From Acidihalobacter prosperus (GTDB taxonomy: Bacteria; Pseudomonadota; Gammaproteobacteria; DSM-5130; Acidihalobacteraceae): a stretch of DNA of 45,648 nucleotides. The notes under the pieces were generated by a model. That model worked only from the letters and a program-made list of their open reading frames with translations. It was not told where the DNA came from and made no database searches. The DNA lies in assembly GCF_000754095.2 (NCBI RefSeq), contig NZ_JQSG02000006.1, positions 1 through 45,648 of the forward strand, read 5' to 3'. The position numbers and the translations under genes were made by a program. Position 1 is the stretch's first letter. Each line of letters opens with the position of its first letter. Below are positions 8,299 to 43,841 of the stretch, piece after piece.

Positions 8299-9420
8299 CT
8301 AATCCTGTCCGACCACGGTGGCCGTCAGCGGAATGCCGCCAGGCGCCCAAGCGACGATGGCGGCGGTATAGGGCGGGGGTTGCAGTGCGGCGTTATTGTT
8401 CGACGGATTGCGGACGTTGACGCCCTGCCCCGTGGCATTCGGGCCGTTGCAGACGCCGACCGGATATCCCCAGGGGTCGGTCACGGCGCTTTGAGACAGC
8501 CCGAGCGAAGACATGAAGCCGCCCAGCACCGTGGCCGGCTGGCAATCCCAAAACACGACCCCGGTATTGGTCACCGGCGTGCCCAGCTGGCCCGGGAACG
8601 GGTCGCCACTGAAATTCCAGCCGCAGTTACCGTTGCCGCTGTTGCAGATGGGACTGTTGCTGTCGAAACTCTGCGCGTTGGTCTGATCGAGCGCATCCGA
8701 CTGCGAAAAGTAATCGGTGGATGGATTCCGCGCGTTCGATGTCAGATATCGGGAGGTGAAAAACTGCCCATAATCGTCCGCCAGAGTGCGCAGCTGATCC
8801 ATCGCCTGCCGGTAATAGGCCTGCTCGATGGGTAGCCCGCTGACGACGACGCCCTGATCGCCGGTGGCCAGCGTGAGCTGCCCGGTCGCCGGGTCGAAGG
8901 TGGTGCCGGGAGACAGTTGATTCTTGCCATCCGACGACACGATCGCGATCACATGGTAGTAAACGGTCGCACCGCCAGGCCCATTAGGCTTGCTCAACGC
9001 GTTGCTGACGAAATAGCGGAAATACTTGTTGTAGCCATCCACTTCCAGACGCTCGACATTCAGTCCCTGCGACTGGGCAATCAGCTGCAGTTCGCTCGCG
9101 GTCTGCGCGCCGTCAGCCTGGCTGGCAGGCACCGCAGACGGCGGCGCGTTATTCGAGGGGGCGGGCGTGATGCAAGCCCCAGGCGCCGCGCAGAAATACT
9201 GCCCGGATAGCGATGAGTCCACCATCAAGGCATTCTCGCGATAGGCGTTCTTGATGGCGTTGGCCGCTTCCAGCAACCGGGTATGCGTGGCTTCCCGTTG
9301 CCCGAAATCCAGCATGGAGTCGAAGATCGGATAACTCATGGCCGTGATCAGCGCAACCAGCCCTATCGCGATCAGGACCTCGATCAAGGTAAAGCCATGC
9401 TGGCGTTCAGAGCATCGCAT
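8299..9420 (-). CDS. pilV: PilV-like large type IV prepilin
   Basis: A 373-residue protein with the class III signal MRCSERQHGFTLIEVLIAIG: short basic leader, Gly before Phe (peptidase site), and Glu at +5, followed by about 20 hydrophobic residues. The ATG at 9420 has GGAGG six bases upstream and overlaps the 3' end of the PilT-like gene by 14 bases; a 16-residue longer start is unlikely. The C-terminal 150 residues are Cys-, Asn- and Gly-rich. In IncI plasmids the large prepilin PilV forms the pilus tip and selects recipients through its C-terminus. No shufflon-type inverted repeats were seen beside it. Confidence 0.8.
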   Translation of the reverse strand: MRCSERQHGFTLIEVLIAIGLVALITAMSYPIFDSMLDFGQREATHTRLLEAANAIKNAYRENALMVDSSLSGQYFCAAPGACITPAPSNNAPPSAVPASQADGAQTASELQLIAQSQGLNVERLEVDGYNKYFRYFVSNALSKPNGPGGATVYYHVIAIVSSDGKNQLSPGTTFDPATGQLTLATGDQGVVVSGLPIEQAYYRQAMDQLRTLADDYGQFFTSRYLTSNARNPSTDYFSQSDALDQTNAQSFDSNSPICNSGNGNCGWNFSGDPFPGQLGTPVTNTGVVFWDCQPATVLGGFMSSLGLSQSAVTDPWGYPVGVCNGPNATGQGVNVRNPSNNNAALQPPPYTAAIVAWAPGGIPLTATVVGQD

Positions 9421-10477
9421 CGAGCGCCTCCGGGTCGTAGGAATGGCGCAGGGCCTCGTCGCGCTCAATCACCTCGTCCCTGACCAGTTTGGTCAGCATG
9501 TCATTGAGCGCGACCATGCCGTACTCCCGGCCGGCACTGATCTCGCTGAGGATTTGATGATCCGTGCCCTTGCGGATGCAGTTGGCGATGCCGCCGTCAA
9601 GCGTCATCAGTTCGTAGGCCAGCACACGTCCGTCGCCGCCCTTGCGCGGCATCAGCACCTGGCGCAGCACCAGGCGCAGGCCGGAGGCCAGCTGCTGGCG
9701 GATCAGCGTATGCTGCGCTTCGGGGAAGAAGGCCAACAGACGGGACACCGTTTCCTGGGCGCCGCGCGTGTGCAGGGTCATGAAGACCAGGTGCCCGGTC
9801 TCCGCCGCTTGCAGGGCGAGGCGTGCCGATTCGGCGTCGCGCACCTCGCCGACGGCGATGACGTTAGGCGCCTCGCGCAATGCCGCGCGCAGGCCCGATG
9901 TGAATGAGTCGGTGTCGTGCCCCACCTCGCGCTGGATGAACTGAGACAGGCCGCCTTCGCGCGTAGGCATTTCCTTCGGAAACAGGATTTCGACCGGGTC
10001 TTCGATGGTCACTGTGGTGGTCGAACGCAAGCGCGCGCGCTCATGCATCATGGCGGACAGCGTGGTCGTCTTGCCGGACCCCGTTTCTCCGGCCACGATG
10101 ATAAGACCGTGAGAGAACTGACAGATGCGCCGGAGCAGGTTCGTCGGCAGGCCGAGACCGTCGAGTTCCGGCGGCTCGGTTTCGAGCCGGCGCAGCACAG
10201 CTCCGCCTCCGCCCATCGACTTGAGCACGTTGACGCGAAAGCGCAGGCCAGAGACCGTTACGCCATGGTCCTGGTCGACATCGGCGCTCCAGTCGACCTT
10301 GCCGCCGACCAGGTACTCGATGTCATCCTCGCGCACGAGCGGCGAGGCCTCCATGACCTTGAGTCCCATGCCGGAGAGTTTGACGACGGGGCGGCTGTTG
10401 ACCCGCAGATAAAGATCCGACCAGGTCGGCGGTTCCGCCTGCAGCCAGTTTTCCATCCAGGTGACGAATCCACTCAC
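9407..10477 (-). CDS. pilT: PilT-like pilus retraction ATPase (first copy)
   Basis: A 356-residue ATPase. I place the start at the GTG at 10477 (AAAGGAG seven bases upstream). Family features are clear: SDLYLRVNSRPVVKLSG at the N-terminus (PilT: SDLHL), Walker A GETGSGKTTT near residue 130, the Asp box, Walker B VIAVGEVRDAES with the full GE-x-RD, and the His box TGHLVFMTLHT. These hexameric enzymes depolymerise the pilus. The gene follows the small pseudopilin gene by 31 bases and overlaps pilV. Note that in IncI plasmids the name pilT is used for a transglycosylase; here PilT means the T4a ATPase. Confidence 0.85.
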   Translation of the reverse strand: MSGFVTWMENWLQAEPPTWSDLYLRVNSRPVVKLSGMGLKVMEASPLVREDDIEYLVGGKVDWSADVDQDHGVTVSGLRFRVNVLKSMGGGGAVLRRLETEPPELDGLGLPTNLLRRICQFSHGLIIVAGETGSGKTTTLSAMMHERARLRSTTTVTIEDPVEILFPKEMPTREGGLSQFIQREVGHDTDSFTSGLRAALREAPNVIAVGEVRDAESARLALQAAETGHLVFMTLHTRGAQETVSRLLAFFPEAQHTLIRQQLASGLRLVLRQVLMPRKGGDGRVLAYELMTLDGGIANCIRKGTDHQILSEISAGREYGMVALNDMLTKLVRDEVIERDEALRHSYDPEALDAML

Positions 10478-18152: not shown

Positions 18153-19265
18153 TTATTCGGCGGCGCCGGCTTCGACGACGGCGACGTGATTGGCCCGATA
18201 CAGCACGATGCGCACCCGGTAGCGGTCCACTATCTGGCGCAGCGTGTTGTCGAGGGTCTTGCCGGTGTAGCGCGCGGGATATTGCAGCGCGTAGTCGTTC
18301 GGGTCGCGCCACACCATCGACCAGCCCTGCCGCTTGAGGAACGCAGCGAGATCATGGGAAAGCAGATCCCCCGCGTGGGTGCGGAACACGAACGAAGTCG
18401 GAGGTTTGGGCGTCAGGTTGACCGCGGTCATCGGCGTGGATTTGAGCGGTGCGGTCGGCGCCTGCGGGCGGCCATGGCCGGGCGCAGCCTTGACCGGCGG
18501 ATGAACCCTCTCGATCGGTGGATGGACGATTTTGACCGGCTTCGGCACGCGAACCTGATAACGCGCCGCGACCAGGGCGGCCTTGGCGTTGGCGCCCGGC
18601 GTCCAGCCGAGATTCGAGACCGGTGCCGCGCCATGCGCGGTCAGCCAGCCGGCCACGACGGCCGCGCGGGCGGCCCCGATCTTCGCGTTGGCCGTCATGC
18701 TGCCGCTCGCGGTCGTCTGCCCGCTCACCCGAATCCATGCGACCTGATGCGCGGCATCAAGGCGCGCGTCGAGCGCCGCCAGTCGTTGCTGATCGGCTGG
18801 CGTGAGCGCCGCGCCATGGCGGAAGGTCAGCGTCAGCTGATCCGTATGCCAGGCATACCGGGGTTTGGCGAAGCGCGCCTGATGTTCCGCCGCAAGGATG
18901 ACGCCGACGCTCTTGGGCGCGACCGCGAAGACCGGTCCTTTCGAGGTATACAGGGTCCACTGGGTGGCTACCTTATCCGCGGTCCAGTAGGCGCCCTGCT
19001 TGTGAAATGGCACGTTCTTTCCGTCGCCCTTGGCTTCCAGCAGCCTTGCGTCGGCGGGCAATGCGAACCAGGTGTCGTGTTCGCCGCTGACGATCTGCGC
19101 TTTCGGGCCATGATCGCTGACGACGTGATACCCGAATACATAACCGGGTATGGCGCCGGCCGGCACTTTCGGCTGGGTCGCGGCGCAGCCGCCGAGCAGA
19201 GGAATGAGCCCCGCGGCCGCCAGGCTGCCCAGCCCGCGATGGATTACAGCGGTTCTTTTCATCAT
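18153..19265 (-). CDS. pilL: PilL-like lipoprotein with TcpQ-type C-terminal domain
   Basis: A 370-residue lipoprotein (lipobox LLGGC near residue 27). The C-terminal 90 residues (TSFVFRTHAGDLLSHDLAAF, then QGWSMVWRD and ALQYPARYTG) match the TcpQ/PilL domain, which interacts with the secretin. The central region (about 170-220) holds RVSGQTTASGSMTANAKIG and RAAVVAGWLTAHG, resembling a degraded OmpA-like peptidoglycan-binding motif. A His/Pro-rich linker joins the two. The ATG at 19265 overlaps the trbI stop, linking the trb and pil operons. A second in-frame ATG follows immediately. Confidence 0.8.
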   Translation of the reverse strand: MMKRTAVIHRGLGSLAAAGLIPLLGGCAATQPKVPAGAIPGYVFGYHVVSDHGPKAQIVSGEHDTWFALPADARLLEAKGDGKNVPFHKQGAYWTADKVATQWTLYTSKGPVFAVAPKSVGVILAAEHQARFAKPRYAWHTDQLTLTFRHGAALTPADQQRLAALDARLDAAHQVAWIRVSGQTTASGSMTANAKIGAARAAVVAGWLTAHGAAPVSNLGWTPGANAKAALVAARYQVRVPKPVKIVHPPIERVHPPVKAAPGHGRPQAPTAPLKSTPMTAVNLTPKPPTSFVFRTHAGDLLSHDLAAFLKRQGWSMVWRDPNDYALQYPARYTGKTLDNTLRQIVDRYRVRIVLYRANHVAVVEAGAAE

Positions 19266-20509
19266 CGATTCTCCGAAGGCATGAGGATGGTTTTGTTGAC
19301 GAGCACGTCGATGGCGGTCCCCGGCGGGATGACCGCGGTCGGCTGCATATTCATGTAGGGCGACAGCACCTTGCCGGCGCTGTTGGCGAAGACCTGCGCG
19401 CCTGCCTGCGCCGGCGACTGGAAGGTGCTGCCCGTGGGCGAGGTGACGGATTGCTGGGGACCTGCAGCGGCAACGCCCTGATCGAGCATCGCCACAAGCA
19501 GGGATGACCCCAGCATCGTCCAGAAATGATTGTCGACATGACCCTTGACGCCGGATGCGCCCTGTTCGCCCACGGCCTGCGAATTGCCGAGCACGATTTC
19601 TCGGCCATCCGGGAAGATCACCCGCTGGAAAGCGACCAGCACGCGGGTTTGTCCATTCGTGATCGAGGTGTCGTAACTGCCGACGAGGCGGGAACCGGCG
19701 GGCACGGCGAGGTGCCCGTTGCGCCCCCAGACGGGATTGGTCACCTGCGCGATGACCGTGCCCGGCAACTGCGTGTTGACGGCGGTGACCGTGGTGGCCG
19801 GCAGGACCACACCCGGGTAAAGCACGGCGCCCTGGAGCGGTGGCAGGACCTTGCTGATCGCCCCGTAACCGCCGTTGACCTGGGCCTCCGTCTGGGATTG
19901 CTTGAGATAGGCCTGATTGCCGTTGGCGCTGTGCGTCCGATGCCCCGCCAGTGCGGCTATCTCGCTGGCAGACGGCATCCGCGCAGGCCCCTGTAGCTGT
20001 CCGTTCGGGGCGCCGCCGCCCGCCCCCGCGTTGTACTCCGGCACGACACCGGTATTACCGGAGCCGTTTCGGCCGGTCTGGTAATCCCCGGTGAGCGCGG
20101 TCAGTGGACTGGCCGCGATGTTGCCCCGCTTGGCGGCATCATGCACATGCTCTGGCGTCGGCGTGGCGTCGGTGACGGCGTTGCCGCCCGAAGCCGAAGA
20201 CGATCCGGCAGGCTTGCCGCCCCCGTGTTCGGCCTCGATCTGATTCAGGCTGTCGAGGATGCTTTTCAGCTCGGACTTGTGCGGGCTGGCCTGCGGATTG
20301 ACGCCGGGCGCCTGCGCGACCGTCTGCGGCGCTGCAGGCTGTACGGGATGGTTCTTGGTGAAGAACGCCACATACAGCGCCGCGGCGACGGCAAAGCCCC
20401 CCATGAGCATGGGCAGCGTCCGCGTCGGCAGACCTCGCCCGGGTTCCTGCGTGTCGCGGGGCGGTGGCGGCGGGGCTTCTTTCTGTTCGCTCTTGCGCCA
20501 GAGGGCCAT
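19262..20509 (-). CDS. trbI: TrbI/VirB10 type IV secretion core protein
   Basis: A 415-residue bitopic protein. It has a cytoplasmic Pro-rich N-terminus, a membrane helix near 33-50 (LPMLMGGFAVAAALYVAFF), a long periplasmic linker and a C-terminal VirB10 beta-barrel domain. That domain contains GTVIAQVTNPVWG, LAVPAGSRLVGSYD and FPDGREIVLGNSQAVG, all family hallmarks. VirB10 spans both membranes and relays ATPase energy to the outer-membrane pore. It starts three bases after trbG and ends overlapping pilL. Confidence 0.95.
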   Translation of the reverse strand: MALWRKSEQKEAPPPPPRDTQEPGRGLPTRTLPMLMGGFAVAAALYVAFFTKNHPVQPAAPQTVAQAPGVNPQASPHKSELKSILDSLNQIEAEHGGGKPAGSSSASGGNAVTDATPTPEHVHDAAKRGNIAASPLTALTGDYQTGRNGSGNTGVVPEYNAGAGGGAPNGQLQGPARMPSASEIAALAGHRTHSANGNQAYLKQSQTEAQVNGGYGAISKVLPPLQGAVLYPGVVLPATTVTAVNTQLPGTVIAQVTNPVWGRNGHLAVPAGSRLVGSYDTSITNGQTRVLVAFQRVIFPDGREIVLGNSQAVGEQGASGVKGHVDNHFWTMLGSSLLVAMLDQGVAAAGPQQSVTSPTGSTFQSPAQAGAQVFANSAGKVLSPYMNMQPTAVIPPGTAIDVLVNKTILMPSENR

Positions 20510-24081: not shown

Positions 24082-24914
24082 GGTGTACCCCCTGTGGGTT
24101 TTGGCATGTTGTTGAACATGTTGCGCAGGTAATCACTGGTGCTGCGACCGGCCTGTCCCGGATTCTGGACTCCGCTGAAAGCCTGATTCAGATTGTTTGC
24201 GGCCTGGCCTGCGGCTTTTTCCTTTTTCGCCTTCTGCAGCGCGGCATGGGATGAGTTCATCGCGGCTTCCGAAGTGAGTTTAAGCAGCGCCGCGTTCTGC
24301 GCGGTCAACGTATGGACCTGTGTATTGAGCAAATCCATGTTTCCGGCCATCCCCTTGATATGACCGATGCTCCGACCGGCGGCTTGCACGCTGTTCGCCA
24401 TGGCATTCGTACGCGCCAGGTTCCGCTTGGCCGATTCGTAACCCGCGGCCGCATACCCCGCATTGCTGTTGGCCATCTGCTGTTCCTGCTGAATGTACTG
24501 CTGCGGCGTGAGGCCGGATGCGTTGTAGGCCTGATACTGCGACATCACGCTCTGATTCGTAACGCCCAGCTGTTGGTCGAACGCCTGCAGATCGCGGTAA
24601 TAGGCGATAGCGTTGTTCAGCTGCGGCGAGTTCTGTCTGCCCACCTGATACATCAGCGTGTTGATTTCACTCTGCGACAGATTTTGCAGATTGATGTCGA
24701 TGCCGTACTTCTGCAGCGCGTAGTTCTGCAACTGATTTTCGATGATGCGAATACTGTTCTGCGCGGACACGGTGTTCCGGGCGAAATTCCAGGGATCGAA
24801 TACCGTGCTGCCGGAGGCGGCCGCATGCGCAATACCCGGGGTTCCGACCAGAACCGCAAGTCCGACCACGAGATCAATCGCGCCGCGTCTGCCTTTCCAC
24901 CATTTCGTCGACAT
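24078..24914 (-). CDS. trbJ: TrbJ/VirB5-type pilus-associated protein
   Basis: A 278-residue exported protein. A signal peptide ends GIAHAAASG, followed by TVFDPWNFARNTVSAQ, close to the TVFDPTNYA start of mature TrbJ proteins. The rest is a long helical, Gln/Asn-rich coiled-coil region, as in VirB5/TrbJ. These proteins sit at the tip or base of the conjugative pilus. Its start lies 41 bases inside the 3' end of trbE, so the two are coupled. Confidence 0.88.
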   Translation of the reverse strand: MSTKWWKGRRGAIDLVVGLAVLVGTPGIAHAAASGSTVFDPWNFARNTVSAQNSIRIIENQLQNYALQKYGIDINLQNLSQSEINTLMYQVGRQNSPQLNNAIAYYRDLQAFDQQLGVTNQSVMSQYQAYNASGLTPQQYIQQEQQMANSNAGYAAAGYESAKRNLARTNAMANSVQAAGRSIGHIKGMAGNMDLLNTQVHTLTAQNAALLKLTSEAAMNSSHAALQKAKKEKAAGQAANNLNQAFSGVQNPGQAGRSTSDYLRNMFNNMPKPTGGTP

Positions 24915-27363
24915 ATCTCATCCTCCATTCCGGATGTCCGCTGTTCATCCAGCGTTCGAACACTTCGTCGGCCTCCGCATCGGCGCGCAGCAGCGCAATG
25001 CCTTCTGCCGGGATATCCACGCGCAGCACGCGCGTACGTCCGTCACGCACGAGTACGGTTTCGCCTTTGGGGCGGGCTTCGCCGATGATCTTCATCTGCT
25101 CGTGGGTCAATCTCAGCCCATCGGAATAGACGGACTCGAACGAGGCGATATCCGGATTGGGCAGCAGGAAGCGATTTGGCGCCGAAGCAAATCCGGTGAA
25201 CGTCCTGGATTCGGCGATTTCCTTGAGCGACTGCGTGGACAGAATCAGCACGCCGTTGAGCTTGCGCAGGGTGCGCAGCCAGTCGTCGAGCTTGCGTGCG
25301 AAGGCCGGATCGTCGAGCGCGAACCAGCCTTCTTCGATATGGATGTAGACCGGAGCGCCGTCGAGCTGCTTGCCGATACGGTGGAAGGCAAGATCCATGA
25401 ACGCACGCGCCGCGCGCGGGAAGCGCAAGACCTCGTCCATCGCGATCCCCACGAAGGCGCCCAGGGTCATGCCGTCAGTCTCGTGGTCGAAATAGCCGGC
25501 GTAACGGCCATCACCGATCCATTGCGCCAGGCGATCGCCGAGCCTGGCCGGCAGCAGTGCCTTGAGCGAGCGCAGGCGTCGGTCGCCGGGTTCGAGCGAC
25601 TGGATGCGCCGGCAGGCCGTGGCAATCTCGTTCACGTCAACCGGCTCGAGTTCTCCGCCGTCGGGAGACAACAGCTGCACCACGAAATCCGTAGCCCAGC
25701 GCCAGTCATCGTCGCCCTCGAGTCCCGCGAAGGGATTGATGCGCATCTTGCCGCTGTCGCCGAGATAGTGGCCGCCCGCCAGCAGGATCATTTTGCGCAG
25801 CGACCGATCCTTGTCGAACACGAACACCCGACTGCGTGGGTACTGCGTCCAGCGCAGGCACATCCAGCCGCCGAGCACGCTTTTACCCATGCCGGTAGGC
25901 CCCAGGATAATGCCGTGGCCGACATCGCCGAGATGCGGCTCCAGCCAGTAGGGTTCCATGGATCGCGTGGCGAAGGTGCAAAGCGCCGGCTGCCGGCTGC
26001 CACTCATCTTGCTCAGATGCCGGGCAATCGAACTGCCCCGCGCTGGACCACGAATGGGCGCCATGTCGGCTATGGCGGCGCCCGATAGATAACTCCAACG
26101 CACGGGTTCGGCCCACTGTCCCGGCAAGGTGCCGGCCCAGGCCGAGATCTGGTGCATGCGTTCGCGCAGCACGGCGAATTCCGCGACATGGAACAACCGC
26201 GAGGCATCCGAGACCGCGCGTTCGAGCTTTTCCGCGGATTCCGCTCGCAGCACCAGCACGGGGAATGCATGTCCCGCGGAGGGCGAATTCGATAAATCGA
26301 GCAGAGCGGCGTCGGCCTCCTTGGCCTGCACGTCCTTGTCGGAATCCACCTGATCGGTTTCCACCTTCATCAGGCCTTCCTTCACGTAGCCGCCAAGACC
26401 CTTGCGCCAGTTGAGCAGGTGGCGCCGGCGCTCCTTGACCGCGCCGCGTGCGGCTTCGGTATCGAGATAGCGCGTAGCGAGCGAGAACACGCATTCACAG
26501 TCGATATCCAGAATCCGGTCAAACACGCCCGGGCCGATGGACTCCGGCCAGGCGTCAGGCACCGTCTTGATGGTCAGCGCCGCGGCATGCACCGTGCGCG
26601 TCGGTCCCGCGAAGTACATCGCGGAGGCATTCTGGTCTAGCGTACATTCGCCCAGGGTTTCATCCAGTGCCTGCAGCGCCGAGCGGGTGCGTAGCGGATG
26701 GTACGGTTCGCTGGGCGAGGCCAGCGCGTTCAGCCAGCCAAGCAGACGTTCTTCGGTCAGGCGATTGAAGCCCGCCGCGGGGAATAACGAGCCGACGCGC
26801 TCGAAGAGCGATTCGGCCTCCGAAACCCGGTCCATCAAGCGGCGGGCATCGTTTTCGAACGCGGCCTGACCCGCCAGGACATTGAGCAGCCATGGGCCGA
26901 TGCCCGAGAGCAGTCCGCTGGCGCCTTCCTGTGCGATGCGTGCGACCAACGTTTCCGCAGGGGTCGGCGGCGACACCATGATCCAGAAGGCGCGGTGAGC
27001 GACATAATGGCTCTTTTTGTTCCAGGCGGCGCGCGCCGCGGCATCCACGCGGCGAGTCACCGGGTCGGAAAAGTCTCCACCCGCCCATCCGGATGACCGA
27101 TCGCGGCGTACCGTCCACCAGGTCTTGATGCGATTGCCGGCGAATCCGTTGATCGCGCGTTCCAGATGCCGGGAATCGCCGGCCTGCTCTGCCGCGCCGC
27201 GGCCTTCGGAGTCGAGTCCGTGGAAACTCCATCCGGCCAGCAGGCCGCCATCCTTGCACAACACGATGCCTGGCGTCAGCGGCGCCACCCAGGGCAGCAG
27301 TTCCGACAACGCGCGGGTGGCCTTGAGCGTCTTGACGCGATCCTTTGCGGCAATCACAGCCAT
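24874..27363 (-). CDS. trbE: TrbE/VirB4 type IV secretion ATPase
   Basis: An 829-residue ATPase, full length for the family. The N-terminal domain (about 1-400) includes RDRSSGWAGGDFSDP. The C-terminal AAA domain has Walker A GPTGMGKSVL near residues 485-494 and Walker B VYIHIEEGWFAL, where the usual Asp-Glu is Glu-Glu, then LILSTQSLKEIAES and RFLLPNPD. It powers pilus assembly and substrate transfer from the inner membrane. Its start overlaps trbD by 10 bases. Confidence 0.95.
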   Translation of the reverse strand: MAVIAAKDRVKTLKATRALSELLPWVAPLTPGIVLCKDGGLLAGWSFHGLDSEGRGAAEQAGDSRHLERAINGFAGNRIKTWWTVRRDRSSGWAGGDFSDPVTRRVDAAARAAWNKKSHYVAHRAFWIMVSPPTPAETLVARIAQEGASGLLSGIGPWLLNVLAGQAAFENDARRLMDRVSEAESLFERVGSLFPAAGFNRLTEERLLGWLNALASPSEPYHPLRTRSALQALDETLGECTLDQNASAMYFAGPTRTVHAAALTIKTVPDAWPESIGPGVFDRILDIDCECVFSLATRYLDTEAARGAVKERRRHLLNWRKGLGGYVKEGLMKVETDQVDSDKDVQAKEADAALLDLSNSPSAGHAFPVLVLRAESAEKLERAVSDASRLFHVAEFAVLRERMHQISAWAGTLPGQWAEPVRWSYLSGAAIADMAPIRGPARGSSIARHLSKMSGSRQPALCTFATRSMEPYWLEPHLGDVGHGIILGPTGMGKSVLGGWMCLRWTQYPRSRVFVFDKDRSLRKMILLAGGHYLGDSGKMRINPFAGLEGDDDWRWATDFVVQLLSPDGGELEPVDVNEIATACRRIQSLEPGDRRLRSLKALLPARLGDRLAQWIGDGRYAGYFDHETDGMTLGAFVGIAMDEVLRFPRAARAFMDLAFHRIGKQLDGAPVYIHIEEGWFALDDPAFARKLDDWLRTLRKLNGVLILSTQSLKEIAESRTFTGFASAPNRFLLPNPDIASFESVYSDGLRLTHEQMKIIGEARPKGETVLVRDGRTRVLRVDIPAEGIALLRADAEADEVFERWMNSGHPEWRMRYVDEMVERQTRRD

Positions 27364-27653
27364 CCTCCCGGCCGGCGGTTTCGGCTGTCCGGGTGTGCCC
27401 AGGGTTCATAGCGATGGCCCTGCTTGGCATAGCGCAGATAGACCTTGAACATGTCAGGGTCCGCGCGATGAGCCATGCCAAGCAACCTGTGAATGCCGAT
27501 GGCGGCCAGAACCCACCAATAGATATGCCCGACGACCACCAGCATGACGGCGAGCGTGAGGTTCCCGACCGCAAGCGGGTAGTCCACGCCCCACAGGACG
27601 CGACCGCCGATCAGGGCGCGCCGAATCATTGTTTTGCGCTCGCCTTCGCTCAC
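27354..27653 (-). CDS. trbD: TrbD/VirB3 small membrane protein
   Basis: A 99-residue protein with two close hydrophobic helices (about 27-65). The starts RRALIGGRVLWGVDYPLAV and LLGMAHRADPDMFKVYLRY are typical of VirB3/TrbD (R-x-L-x-R-P-x-L...G then D-P-x-x). It associates with VirB4 at the inner membrane. It lies three bases after trbC and overlaps trbE. Confidence 0.9.
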   Translation of the reverse strand: MSEGERKTMIRRALIGGRVLWGVDYPLAVGNLTLAVMLVVVGHIYWWVLAAIGIHRLLGMAHRADPDMFKVYLRYAKQGHRYEPWAHPDSRNRRPGGWL

Positions 27654-28156: not shown

Positions 28157-29158
28157 TCAATTTGCTTTGGCAATGCCCGCCTCGAAGCGGTTTTCCAGCA
28201 CGAATCCGGTATCGTCCAGACCTTCCACGGCGGCCACCGCGACAACCTGCTTCTTGCGCAGGCACACCACGCCACCGACGGAAGCCGCGATCGCGGAGCG
28301 AATGGCCGACTGCGGCCAGGAGCGCGCCTCTTCGGCTTGCCCCACCAACGAAGCCAGGCGGAGCAGCGCGCCGGCGGGCGATCCCGCGTGGATGGTGGAA
28401 AAGGACCCGCCGTGTCCTGTGTTGAACGCCTGCAGCAGATCGTAGGCCTCGCGTCCCCGGATCTCGCCGAGCACGATCCGGTCGGGACGCTGGCGCAGCG
28501 CCTCGCGCAACAACGCACTCATGTCGGCCCCGCCACGCGACTCGAAGCGTACCCGGTTGGGATTCGGCACCGTCAGTTCAGGGGTGTCCTCGATGACGAT
28601 CAATCGGTCCGTCGGCGCCAATTCCGCCAACAAGGCATTGATGAAGGTCGTTTTGCCCGATCCCGTCGCGCCCGCGACGAGGACGTTTCGCGATTCTTCC
28701 AGCAGGCGCAGGGTTTCCTGGCGCACGATCTCGCCGTACATCGCCAGCGAAGCCTGCATCGGTACGTGGCGTCGAATACACAGCGTCGGTCCTTCGACCG
28801 CCGCCGGTTCCAGCACCGCGCCGACCCGCAGATGCCGTCCGACGCGGGCATCCACAATCGGGCACTGATCGCCGGCATCGATGCCGGCCAGCCTGCCGAG
28901 CGCGACAATGGCCGTTTCCACAGCATCCTTGGGCAGGGTGCAGTCGACGCGCCGCATGCCGGCCCTGTCCTCGACCCAGATATCGTCATGCCGGTTGATC
29001 ATGACTTCGGTCACTTCGCCCGCGAACAGGTGACTCAAGGGCATCAACAAGGCGGACAAAAGCCGTTTTGCCTCGCGCGATTCCAGGGTTTCGCCCGGCT
29101 GTGCCGTCAAGGCGTCTTCCAGTCCACCGGCAAGCTGATCGGGGTTCGGGTGCGTCAT
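28157..29158 (-). CDS. trbB: TrbB/VirB11 type IV secretion ATPase
   Basis: A 333-residue hexameric ATPase. The N-terminal domain includes HLFAGEVTEVMINRHDDIWV; Walker A GATGSGKTTF lies near residue 166, then the Asp box VIEDTPEL, Walker B RIVLGEIRGREAYDLL and the His box GGSFSTIHAGSPAGAL. All are intact. The start MTHPNPDQLAGG is chosen on family length; an ATG 12 codons upstream is also possible and neither has a strong ribosome site. It heads the trb operon, divergent from rnc. Confidence 0.95.
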   Translation of the reverse strand: MTHPNPDQLAGGLEDALTAQPGETLESREAKRLLSALLMPLSHLFAGEVTEVMINRHDDIWVEDRAGMRRVDCTLPKDAVETAIVALGRLAGIDAGDQCPIVDARVGRHLRVGAVLEPAAVEGPTLCIRRHVPMQASLAMYGEIVRQETLRLLEESRNVLVAGATGSGKTTFINALLAELAPTDRLIVIEDTPELTVPNPNRVRFESRGGADMSALLREALRQRPDRIVLGEIRGREAYDLLQAFNTGHGGSFSTIHAGSPAGALLRLASLVGQAEEARSWPQSAIRSAIAASVGGVVCLRKKQVVAVAAVEGLDDTGFVLENRFEAGIAKAN

Positions 29159-29288
29159 CGAAATACCTATTTCTGAACGTCTGATTTCCAGCATCGCACC
29201 GTTGTCACCCCATGTTTTCGCTGAATAACGGTTGTGAGCGCGGTTATTTGGGTCCGTGGCGGGTTGGCGCGCCCCTCATGCTGCCTGC

Positions 29289-29933
29289 ATGCAGAACTGG
29301 ATATCCCATCTCCCCGACGGACTGGCCGACGACCCGCTGTTGCGCACGGCGTTGACGCATCGTTCCGCCGGCGAGCCTCACAACGAACGACTCGAATTTC
29401 TGGGGGATGCGGTACTGGAACTGGTCGTGTCCGAATGGCTGTACCGCAAGCCCTCGCAGCTGACCGAAGGCGGCATGAGCAGGCTCCGCACCCGTCTCGT
29501 GGAACGGGATGCGTTGTGCCGGGTCGCGCAGAACATGGATCTCGCCGGACGGATCGCGCTTTCCGGCGCTCACGCGCACCCGGAGACGCCCTCGCCCCGG
29601 GTGCTGGCCGGCGCGGTGGAAGCCATCATCGGCGCGGTCTTCGAATATGCCGGGTGGGAAGCGGCGAAATCCTTCGTCATCGCCCTGCTTGCCGATGCCA
29701 TGCAGCATCTGCCGGAGAACCCCGAAGACGCCAAGGACGCGAAAACGAAACTGCAGGAATGTCTGGCGCGACGCCATAAGACGGGACCGCACTATCGCAC
29801 GGTGTCGACGCGCGGCGGCCAGTTCATCGTGCATTGCACGGCCGGCGGCGTCGGCGGTGTGGGCATGGGGAGTAGTCGGCAAGAAGCCGAGTTCAGCGCC
29901 GCGGCGCAGTGCCTGGAAAAGCTTGCCGGGTGA
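29289..29933 (+). CDS. rnc: RNase III-family protein with altered metal site
   Basis: A 214-residue protein with the two RNase III domains: an endonuclease domain (1-145) with the signature HNERLEFLGDAVLEL (near residue 32) and a double-stranded RNA binding domain (about 150-214) ending QEAEFSAAAQCLEKL. RNase III cuts double-stranded RNA with two metal ions held by two acidic residues in the signature and an Asp and a Glu further on. Here the later motif reads VLAGAVEAIIG instead of LADTVEALIG: the Asp is Gly108, while Glu111 is kept. Activity may be changed. The ATG at 29289 is preferred to a GTG at 29256. It is divergent from trbB with about 130 bases between them. RNase III genes are normally chromosomal near lepA/era; its presence here is unusual. 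Confidence 0.92.
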   Translation: MQNWISHLPDGLADDPLLRTALTHRSAGEPHNERLEFLGDAVLELVVSEWLYRKPSQLTEGGMSRLRTRLVERDALCRVAQNMDLAGRIALSGAHAHPETPSPRVLAGAVEAIIGAVFEYAGWEAAKSFVIALLADAMQHLPENPEDAKDAKTKLQECLARRHKTGPHYRTVSTRGGQFIVHCTAGGVGGVGMGSSRQEAEFSAAAQCLEKLAG

Positions 29934-30020: not shown

Positions 30021-30869
30021 ATGAAGAAAGCGCTTTTCCCCAGCGTCGCCTTGCTGGCTGTTGCCCTGGCCGGACCCGCCTATGCTTACGGCTTTTCGGA
30101 TTTCTTTGGGGCTGTGCCCAACACGATTCAAGATGCGCATTCCGGCATCAATATCGGCATCGGACAGCTTTCGCAGCATTATCAGGAAACCTACAACGGT
30201 GCCTCGCTGGATTCTGAATCCGGCACGATCGACGGTCATGAGATTGGTGTTGGTGGCCAATGGAGTCATTTCGGTTTTCAGACGGATTACAGCCTGTTTT
30301 CCGGAAACACCCATTACAACGGCGCGGTGCAGAATATCCAAACGGGCACCATCACCCCGGTTCAGTCGCAGACGGGAAACAAGATCATCGACTTTGATCT
30401 CAAGTTCGATTACGGATTCTCTCCGTTGCCCGGACTTGCCGTCATGCCGGATGTGTTTTGGGGTCGCCATGCGTGGTATCGAACGCTGGGCGGGGTCGGC
30501 GGCTATCAGGAAGATTATTACAATGGTTACGATGGCGTCGGTCTGGATGTCGATTACAATCTCGGCCGCGGATTCGTGCTATCGGGAAATGTACAGTCGG
30601 GCAACACCTTCGGCGCGTACGACAATATTTATATCGGCTCCGGCACCCAGGTTGATCTTGGGAGCCATAGCTGGACTCAGGAAGGCGTCAAATTGTCTTG
30701 GATTCCGAGTAACAACTGGAATGTGTTTGTGAGCTATTCGCAAACGAAGTTTGGCTACGGCGCTTCTTCGTTGAGCACTGTGCAGACTTCGGCGGGAACC
30801 TTGTCGCTGCTTGAGCCGAACAGCACGACGCGCCAGGATGTCCTGATGCTGGGTGTTCGGGTGTTTTGA
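30021..30869 (+). CDS. outer-membrane beta-barrel protein
   Basis: A 282-residue protein with a signal peptide (MKKALFPSVALLAVALAGPA, then YAYG). The mature part alternates polar and aromatic residues (GHEIGVGGQWSHFGFQTDYS, FDLKFDYGFS, WNVFVSYSQTKFGYG), with Gly/Asn turns. It ends MLGVRVF, with the C-terminal Phe recognised by the BAM machinery. The barrel probably has 10-12 strands. Substrate unknown; candidates are a porin or a surface-exclusion protein of the element. It lies between rnc and CRISPR array 1. Confidence 0.75.
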   Translation: MKKALFPSVALLAVALAGPAYAYGFSDFFGAVPNTIQDAHSGINIGIGQLSQHYQETYNGASLDSESGTIDGHEIGVGGQWSHFGFQTDYSLFSGNTHYNGAVQNIQTGTITPVQSQTGNKIIDFDLKFDYGFSPLPGLAVMPDVFWGRHAWYRTLGGVGGYQEDYYNGYDGVGLDVDYNLGRGFVLSGNVQSGNTFGAYDNIYIGSGTQVDLGSHSWTQEGVKLSWIPSNNWNVFVSYSQTKFGYGASSLSTVQTSAGTLSLLEPNSTTRQDVLMLGVRVF

Positions 30870-30980: not shown

Positions 30981-31133
30981 GTTCCCCCCGTGTATGCGGG
31001 GATGAGAGGATGGGCCTGACGCATGACCCGATCGAGCTTGCGTTCCCCCCGTGTATGCGGGGATGAGAGGAATACACGGCAATGCGGTATTACAACCCGC
31101 GCTAGTTCCCCCCGTGTATGCGGGGATGAGGGA
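30981..31133 (+). CRISPR. CRISPR array 1, three repeats and two spacers
   Basis: Repeats of 29 bases at 30981-31009, 31042-31070 and 31105-31133. Each begins GTTCCCCCCGTGTATG and continues CGGGGATGAGAGG; the last one ends GATGAGGGA, a decayed terminal repeat, which agrees with the leader being at the low-coordinate side. Spacers are 32 and 34 bases. The palindromic CCCCG...CGGGG core and 29/32 spacing resemble type I-E repeats. No cas gene is in the window. Compared with array 2, every repeat here has T instead of C at position 15. Confidence 0.9.
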
Positions 31134-31186: not shown

Positions 31187-33145
31187 ATGCCAATCATGTC
31201 CACCGCGGCCATTCAGCCCGGTCACGCCTTCAGGGACAACCGTTCGGTGGGTCCCTTGGCCGCGTTTGGGCTGACGCAGGCGCGACAGATACCACTCTTT
31301 CTGCCTCACCGATGGGATGATCTGCGGCGAGCCATAACACAATTAGATTTCAAGCGCGGCGATGTTGGGCAGATGGTTCTCGTGCATGGTGTATTGAGCC
31401 GAGCGCCGGTGCTCAACACTCGCCCCTACCCTCGCCTGATCGGTCAGATGCTGGATGACGACGGACGCGCGCTTGAATTCACCCTTTACGGTACGGCGGC
31501 TGATCTCGAGACGCTGCGGCTCACTTTGCCGTCAGGCTGCCGGGTGCATCTATTCGGCAAACTCGACTTCGCTGGGCGCGCATTGCGCCTCAAGGGCGCT
31601 CAGCCAGTTTCTCCTGAGTGGGTCGGCAAGCTTCGTCCCGTCTACTCTGGCAAGCAGGGTTTGGAGCCGGATGTCGTTCGCCGGTATGTGCTGAACCGAC
31701 TCAAGGCGCAGGTGCCCGATGCCGCTAACTGGCTTCGCGATCAACTGGGCGAGTCGGAGATCAACGAATGGCACATGGTGTCCGGCCTTCCCATGCGGGT
31801 TCCTCTTGAGCGGGTGCTTTGGCTGGCCCATCGTCCGCGAACGCCGGACGAGGGGCGCGCGGCGCAGCAAGTGCTGGAGAGACTCGCCGCCTGGCATGCC
31901 CTGCGCGATCTGCGCGCCACGCAACATCTTGGCGTGGCCCGGTGGCATCATCCCGCCCCCTGGGAACCGCAAGCTAGGGCGCTCGGCTTCGCGCTCACGA
32001 AGGACCAGCGCACTGCCGTTGGGGAAATCCACAAGGATCTTTCCAGACTCAGGCCCATGCGCCGTCTGCTATCCGGCGACGTGGGTACCGGCAAAACGGC
32101 CGTTTTCGCGCTGGCGGCCATCTCCTCCGTGCGTGGCGGTGGGCGCGTGGCTATCCTGCTGCCGAACGAGCGACTGGCCGAGCAGGTACACGAGCGCATC
32201 ATCGGCTGGTGGCCTGATGTCGCCGCTGTCTGCGTGACCGGCACAACTGAAAGTACGAGCGATTTGACGCATGCGCCATTACTGGTCGGCACGACCGCTC
32301 TGTTGCATCGCGAAACAGGCACATTCGATCTGGTCGTGGTCGACGAACAGCACAAGTTTTCCCGTGAACAGCGGGAGAAGCTCGTCGGCGACGGCACGCA
32401 TCTGCTGGAAGCATCGGCAACCTGCATTCCGCGCTCCCAGGCGCTGATTCGCTTTGGCGCGCTAACGGTTTCGAAATTGCGGGACGGACCGGTCAAGAAG
32501 ACCATTCATACCCGTCTCTGGCAAGCCAGCGAGCAGACCAAACTATTTCAACAGATCCGCGAAACCTGCGCATCCGGCAGTCAGGTCATCGTCGTCTACC
32601 CGCGCAAGGCCGGCGCCAAGGAACCCGGCACCGGGCGTGATCGCAAATCGGCCGAGGACATGTTTCATCTGTGGGAGCGTCATTTCCCGGGACAAGTCAT
32701 GCTCTCGCATGGCGGTCTGGATCAGGACGAAAACCGAGCGGCCATGGAGACGATGAAGTCTGGCAAAGCCCGCATCCTGGTAGCCACCACGCTCGTCGAG
32801 GTAGGCATCGATCTACCGGGTGTTAGACGCCTTGTGGTGATGAACCCGGAAACGCTAGGGCTGACCCAGTTGCACCAGTTACGCGGCCGCGTGGCGCGCA
32901 ACGGCGGCGAAGGCTGGTTCGATTTGTATCTATCCCGTCCGATGAAGGAAAAGACCTTGCGGCGCCTCGATGTCATAACGCGCACGACCGACGGCTTCGA
33001 GATTGCGGAAGCGGATCTGAGGCAGCGCGGCCATGGCAATCTTGCCGCCGATTCGAACCGGCAATCGGGAGACGACGGCGTGTTTCTCTTCGGGCGGCAT
33101 GTCGGCTTCGATACCCTGGAAGCGGTTGCCGCGAAAATCGCTTGA
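31187..33145 (+). CDS. RecG-like superfamily 2 DNA helicase
   Basis: A 652-residue protein. An N-terminal OB-like wedge region (about 50-130, with VLVHGVLSRAPVLNTRPYPR) precedes the helicase core. Walker A GDVGTGKTAV lies near residue 296, DEQHKFSREQREKL near 386, motif III ASATCIPRSQAL, and motif VI QLRGRVARNGGEGWFDLYL near 564. This is the RecG order (GDVGSGKT, DEQHRFG, TATPIPRT, QLRGRVGR). Differences are Cys in the TATPIPR motif and Ala-Arg-Asn for Gly-Arg in motif VI. RecG remodels stalled forks and R-loops. The protein is a little shorter than chromosomal RecG (about 690). Start is ATG 31187 or 31196. It lies 53 bases after the last CRISPR repeat. Confidence 0.85.
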   Translation: MPIMSTAAIQPGHAFRDNRSVGPLAAFGLTQARQIPLFLPHRWDDLRRAITQLDFKRGDVGQMVLVHGVLSRAPVLNTRPYPRLIGQMLDDDGRALEFTLYGTAADLETLRLTLPSGCRVHLFGKLDFAGRALRLKGAQPVSPEWVGKLRPVYSGKQGLEPDVVRRYVLNRLKAQVPDAANWLRDQLGESEINEWHMVSGLPMRVPLERVLWLAHRPRTPDEGRAAQQVLERLAAWHALRDLRATQHLGVARWHHPAPWEPQARALGFALTKDQRTAVGEIHKDLSRLRPMRRLLSGDVGTGKTAVFALAAISSVRGGGRVAILLPNERLAEQVHERIIGWWPDVAAVCVTGTTESTSDLTHAPLLVGTTALLHRETGTFDLVVVDEQHKFSREQREKLVGDGTHLLEASATCIPRSQALIRFGALTVSKLRDGPVKKTIHTRLWQASEQTKLFQQIRETCASGSQVIVVYPRKAGAKEPGTGRDRKSAEDMFHLWERHFPGQVMLSHGGLDQDENRAAMETMKSGKARILVATTLVEVGIDLPGVRRLVVMNPETLGLTQLHQLRGRVARNGGEGWFDLYLSRPMKEKTLRRLDVITRTTDGFEIAEADLRQRGHGNLAADSNRQSGDDGVFLFGRHVGFDTLEAVAAKIA

Positions 33146-43567: not shown

Positions 43568-43841
43568 GTTCCCCCCGTGTACGCGGGGATGAGAGGACCA
43601 GCAGGTCTGCCCGCATCTGTCGTGGCAGGTTCCCCCCGTGTACGCGGGGATGAGAGGCTACGGCGACGTGAAAAGGATTTTGCAATTCGGTTCCCCCCGT
43701 GTACGCGGGGATGAGAGGGGGTCGTACTGGCCTGCCCTTGACTTCTCCACCGTTCCCCCCGTGTACGCGGGGATGAGAGGCGGATTGACCAGCGGAGGGC
43801 GACTTGGCCTGCGTTCCCCCCGTGTACGCGGGGATGAGAGG
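43568..43841 (+). CRISPR. CRISPR array 2, five repeats and four spacers
   Basis: Repeats of 29 bases at 43568, 43629, 43690, 43752 and 43813 (starts), identical to each other: GTTCCCCCCGTGTACG followed by CGGGGATGAGAGG. Spacers are 32, 32, 33 and 32 bases and all differ. Spacing and palindrome fit type I-E. Perfect repeats suggest this array is younger or more active than array 1. No cas genes are adjacent. None of its spacers was recognised elsewhere in this window by eye, which is not a proper search. Confidence 0.95.

Follow-up and report, generated by a model that had tools for sequence, protein, structure and literature searches.

RNase III is normally encoded by a single housekeeping gene. 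The locus described here raises the questions of why a conjugative element would carry a further copy, and of what such a protein does when one acid of its catalytic set is missing. The window, by which we mean the whole stretch of DNA that was analysed (45,648 nucleotides of Acidihalobacter prosperus contig NZ_JQSG02000006.1), contains a reading frame that begins with ATG at 29289, ends with a stop codon at 29931-29933 and encodes a 214-aa RNase III.

An RNase III gene beside a trb-like operon

The features of the window that bear on this gene are as follows, G002 and G003 being the genomes of a sister species and of another genus.

19262-20509, minus strand: TrbI/VirB10-like protein (NCBIfam family match)
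24874-27363, minus strand: TrbE/VirB4-like ATPase (NCBIfam NF010447, 335 bits, below the cut-off of 1020)
27354-27653, minus strand: TrbD-like protein (NCBIfam NF010395, 26.1 bits, below the cut-off of 60)
28157-29194, minus strand: TrbB/VirB11-like ATPase, divergent from the RNase III gene, which it also adjoins in G002 and G003
29289-29933, plus strand: accessory RNase III with a C-terminal dsRNA-binding domain, G108 standing at the place of E. coli D114
30021-30869, plus strand: protein without a Pfam match, between the RNase III gene and the first array, present in G002 too
30981-31133, plus strand: CRISPR array 1, three repeats, the end of the last one degenerate
31187-33145, plus strand: RecG-like helicase, kept downstream in G002 and G003
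43568-43841, plus strand: CRISPR array 2, five repeats

Three Pfam domains score above their cut-offs in the 214-aa protein, namely Ribonucleas_3_3 (PF14622; 97.3 bits, cut-off 35), Ribonuclease_3 (PF00636; 72.8 bits, cut-off 27) and dsrm (PF00035; 39.5 bits, cut-off 23), and 29289-29933 is therefore no chance reading frame. An RNase III domain followed by a dsRNA-binding domain is the architecture of class I bacterial RNase III, and the signature NERLEFLGD occupies residues 32-40. Since the NCBIfam ribonuclease III equivalog, TIGR02191, gives 165.5 bits, just under its cut-off of 166.25, we file the protein by its architecture and not as a ribonuclease III equivalog. Mini-RNase III, which is an RNase III domain without a dsRNA-binding domain, was considered and excluded because the dsrm domain is present.

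The reading frame, the Pfam domains and the trb-like neighbours together bear out the initial annotation, which had described a full-length RNase III, including a dsRNA-binding domain, encoded divergently from a trb operon. Each Trb-like neighbour gives a strong family match that lies below the NCBIfam equivalog cut-off, and type IV pilus-like genes are also found on the minus strand near the RNase III gene. Rfam at gathering thresholds returned nothing in the window. The gene order around RNase III is common to the window's genome (G000), G002 and, at lower identity, G003, and the position beside trbB is thus kept in two genera; the 30021-30869 protein had no match in the G003 stretches compared. 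In a search of 369 genomes of the class, the TrbB-like ATPase was found at E <= 1e-60 in three genomes alone, namely G000, G003 and G269, the last belonging to another family. In G002 and G003 the locus is embedded in contigs of 3.57 Mb and 3.45 Mb respectively, so that the element looks integrated rather than plasmid-borne, and probably is. A tyrosine recombinase is located near one side of it in G003, and a check for attachment sites found no tRNA in the six stretches searched.

AlphaFold2 modelling of the accessory RNase III gave a mean pLDDT of 91.8. Among PDB entries Foldseek ranks E. coli RNase III 7r97 first; this variant, in which residues 38 and 65 are Ala, also served as the alignment reference. 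In this alignment E. coli LADTVEALIG stands opposite LAGAVEAIIG, such that D114 corresponds to G108, and E33, E36, D40, E60 and E111 align with E. coli E38, E41, D45, E65 and E117. Three of the four residues of the catalytic set (E41, D45, D114 and E117) are matched, the D114 column holding Gly. The earlier observation that G-A-V-E replaces D114-x-x-E117 is thereby confirmed, with E111 kept, as is the report of an intact ERLEFLGD, which is found within NERLEFLGD.

A lineage apart from the host enzyme

One other RNase III domain gene was found in the window's genome, on a different contig (C1) and in a lepB-rnc-era setting. This host rnc keeps the Asp and is 40% identical to the protein encoded at 29289-29933, which is an accessory RNase III copy. 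Accessory copies are carried by three of five genomes of the family and order (G000, G002 and G003); the remaining two, G001 and G004, have one RNase III each. The copy in G002 is syntenic, 94% identical to that of G000 and likewise has Gly at the D114 column; the copy in G003 is also syntenic, shares 46-49% identity with that of G000 and has Ser. The reading frame is open in all three, and all three keep E36, D40 and E111 despite the distance between G000 and G003. A second acid is missing throughout: at the E. coli E100 column the accessory copies have H, H and M, and the loop that holds this column is modelled with lower AlphaFold2 confidence in the accessory RNase III. Sequencing error was considered as the source of the Gly; the recurrence of Gly in G002 and the Ser in G003 speak against it.

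Two trees each unite the three accessory proteins in a clade (SH-aLRT 97; 100/97) separate from the rnc genes of their hosts, and both reject a recent duplication of host rnc. The clade and the acid missing from all three syntenic copies (G, G and S) support this part of the initial annotation, an element-borne RNase III without the Asp. Searches with an alignment of the three copies covered a sample of 369 genomes of the class and, at E <= 1e-40, one of 398 genomes of the phylum, the two overlapping, with at most seven or eight candidates scored per genome; the next best matches reached 186.7 and 168.8 bits, as against 391-440 bits for the three accessory copies, and further members may exist.

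Searching genome_contigs with the single protein for close relatives found none, and the alignment retrieved more distant RNase III relatives there, of which the best 80 of 570 were taken. The alignment search of viral_contigs gave no relatives. Matches were obtained in 62 plasmid records and 12 phage records, and the nine examined out of these 74 (seven plasmid, two phage) all have D at the D114 column. Five of the seven plasmid copies lie in lepB-rnc settings (four with era) and one lies beside mutM, surroundings that suggest housekeeping copies. On the seventh plasmid, NZ_CP090643.1 of Burkholderia contaminans, there is an unannotated, truncated RNase III domain (L215:3001-3360) with the Asp kept, about 0.8 kb from an integrase gene.

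The trbB-like gene of G269 is 50% identical to that of the window, and a contig of this genome has many genes common to these elements. An accessory RNase III on this contig has retained the Asp, so its loss is no general rule for element-borne copies. One tree places the G269 copy with host rncs (SH-aLRT 87, on a long branch); the other places it next to the three accessory copies without support (57/35). Of the element-borne copies, then, that of G002 shares the Gly of the window's gene, that of G003 has Ser and that of G269 has Asp.

The divergence between G000 and G002 points to recent transfer of the element between the lineages of these sister species. Six element genes have dS values of 0.10-0.21 (0.134 for the accessory rnc), far below the 1.08 of chromosomal rnc, which indicates that the element moved between the lineages well after their split. 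In the accessory gene, 20 synonymous and 12 nonsynonymous differences (dN/dS 0.19; binomial test against neutral sites, p ~1e-5) indicate that it is under purifying selection, which would act on a protein that only binds RNA as well.

RNase IIIs without the D114 side chain

To place the missing Asp among other RNase IIIs, we surveyed 147 distinct rows, comprising the three accessory proteins and 144 others. The E36 and D40 columns hold E and D in 142 of the 144 (two gaps), and the E111 column holds E in 144 of 144. Two of the 144 are fragments of the window's own gene and were dropped; the D114 column of the 142 that remain holds Asp in 131 rows, Asn in 10, Ser in one and Gly in none, fractions that are not those of bacteria at large, since similarity to the accessory protein decided which rows entered the survey. 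A second search covered five genomes that contribute N or S rows, four of them MAGs that may be incomplete and one a Nitrosomonas (Asn) whose record is not titled a MAG. No RNase III domain gene besides the D-less one was found in four of the five; the remaining one, an Uhrbacteria MAG (G752), has two (G752:C12, L204/L127; G752:C2, L209), both with Asn at this column.

Published accounts differ on what D114 contributes: in a post-cleavage structure of the E. coli enzyme it is the only one of four catalytic side chains without direct Mg2+ coordination (PMC9291653), whereas PMC3839596 counts it among four metal-binding residues. In PMC8708148 (Table 1) D114A is weakly active in excess Mg2+ and binds dsRNA poorly; E117K/A/Q are inactive, and loss of D45 nearly abolishes activity. 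Human Drosha RIIIDa has Asn at the D114 column in our alignment and, according to PMC7174388, cuts the 3p strand. Since D114A is weak and not dead, and since D-less RNase IIIs exist elsewhere, loss of D114 predicts a weaker or retuned enzyme and not necessarily a dead one. The suggestion of binding without cutting in the initial annotation is therefore not supported by the substitution alone, given the residual activity of D114A, the lack of a direct Mg2+ contact in one structure and the presence of Asn or Ser in 11 of the 142 other RNase IIIs.

A second column varies together with the first. Of the 142 other rows, 133 have Ser at column 104, which precedes column 108 by one helical turn. Arg104 is found in all three accessory rows and in four of the 142, all of them D-less (Asn in a Parcubacteria MAG and in both copies of the Uhrbacteria MAG, Ser in a Bdellovibrionia MAG); none of the 131 Asp-bearing rows has it, and all seven Arg104 rows lack the Asp (Fisher p ~2e-5 on the 142 rows, a value that ignores relatedness, two of the four Arg rows coming from one MAG). 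As seven other D-less rows keep Ser at this column, Arg104 is not required for loss of the Asp; it may nonetheless be a residue that compensates for it. From this co-occurrence one might tentatively envisage, as a possibility we would rate well short of even, a D114-independent form of RNase III, accompanied by Arg104, that a family of conjugative elements has adopted as its own RNA regulator.

Probable activity and proposed role of the accessory RNase III

We favour, at a probability of roughly 0.55, the reading that this is an element-borne class I RNase III, retuned but active, that would serve the element's own RNA. Cutting, an altered activity and element RNAs as substrates are all inferences. 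The protein would most likely cut dsRNA through the conserved E36/D40/E111 metal cluster, at a lower rate or with a changed preference for metal or substrate, as it lacks the acids found in E. coli at D114 and E100. Its substrates would be duplexes formed by RNA of the element, such as antisense transcripts or divergent ones that overlap near the trb genes, and the element could in this way adjust its transfer genes independently of host RNase III. A role of RNase III in transfer control is known from the degradation of FinP-traJ duplexes (PMC9977716). Weighing against an active enzyme are the E100 acid, which is gone too, the Gly itself, which no other row of the survey has at the D114 column, and the low dsRNA binding and only weak activity that PMC8708148 gives for D114A.

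An alternative, which we consider unlikely, is a dsRNA-binding protein that does not cut and that either protects element duplexes against host RNase III or is a competitor of the latter. Two conserved acids are missing from a protein whose dsRNA-binding domain is intact, and catalytically incompetent relatives of RNase III are known in trypanosome editing complexes (PMC9508840). However, the counterparts of E117, without which the E. coli enzyme is inactive, and of D45, without which it is nearly so (PMC8708148), are kept in all three accessory copies, and a D-less RNase III is the only copy found in four genomes.

It is quite improbable that the gene is a passenger or decaying copy with no role in the element. 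Accessory cargo of mobile elements can be neutral, and the gene sits on such an element, yet it is under purifying selection, its frame is open in all three copies and its place is kept across two genera. Still less do we expect the protein to act as a partner of host RNase III. RNase III dimerises, each subunit having an active site of its own, and the host copy is 40% identical, features under which mixed dimers with one weak site might make single-strand nicks or cut at new sites, but the accessory clade is deeply separate from host rnc. Hardly credible is a role in processing CRISPR RNA for the neighbouring arrays. In its favour, G000, G002 and G003 all have arrays downstream of the gene and on its strand, and G001 and G004, which lack an accessory copy, gave no match to the repeat pattern. 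Against it, the repeat shows by eye a short Cas6-type hairpin, and no tracr-like anti-repeat (the criterion for type II crRNA maturation) in the window scored over shuffled repeats, the best score outside the arrays being 12/11 and 30 shuffles giving 11-16. Moreover, a Cas6-like gene accompanies the type IV-A genes of G003, and in G002 the RNase III is retained where just two repeats, one of them degenerate, lie nearby and there is no Cas6e-family match.

We treat the arrays as neighbours and not as the function of the accessory RNase III. Both arrays of the window have a 29-nt I-E-like repeat and share a leader, and no cas genes were recognised among the window proteins scanned. The arrays of G000, G002 and G003 are preceded by leaders that resemble one another on inspection by eye and in blastn (73-76%). 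In G003, which has further arrays too, the accessory RNase III is followed directly, on its own strand, by nine repeats. The cas genes in G000 and G003 match type IV models. Those of G003 are about 107 kb away and comprise Cas6, DinG, Csf2, Csf3 and a 324-aa protein without a PADLOC match (L169:1126-6931; G003:C1 ~1196126-1201931), with arrays of the same repeat adjoining and a tyrosine recombinase near. The sole Cas6e-family match of G000 lies on contig C4, where type IV-A genes and arrays with a different repeat adjoin it; this second type IV-A set (G000:C4; L171:4201-8323, 9234-9860) includes Csf2, DinG and Csf3.

If the accessory protein is indeed an active, retuned RNase III, its position beside the transfer operon could free the RNA control of the element from each new host, and natural RNase IIIs without the D114 side chain offer a direct route to the role of that residue. 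In searches of open-licence papers, an element-borne or second bacterial RNase III is described in none of the titles and abstract openings listed. The accessory RNase III shares with the class I enzyme of E. coli (7r97) the domain order, the NERLEFLGD signature and five matching acids; E. coli RNase III has D114 and E100 where the accessory protein has Gly and His, and, unlike it, the accessory gene is borne by a conjugative element beside trbB. The host rnc also combines an RNase III domain with a dsRNA-binding domain, but it keeps the Asp, has a chromosomal housekeeping setting and belongs to another part of the tree. The accessory RNase III of G269 is likewise an extra copy on a contig sharing many genes with these elements, yet it keeps the Asp and does not lie beside trbB, unlike the three copies described here. 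Chromosomal Asn and Ser enzymes, such as those of Nitrosomonas sp. Nm132 and the Bdellovibrionia MAG, have no Asp either and keep the other catalytic acids, but none has Gly, and those searched again are not known to lie on an element. Human Drosha RIIIDa resembles the accessory copy in having no Asp at the D114 column and yet cuts, although Drosha, unlike the accessory RNase III, is a eukaryotic two-domain enzyme.
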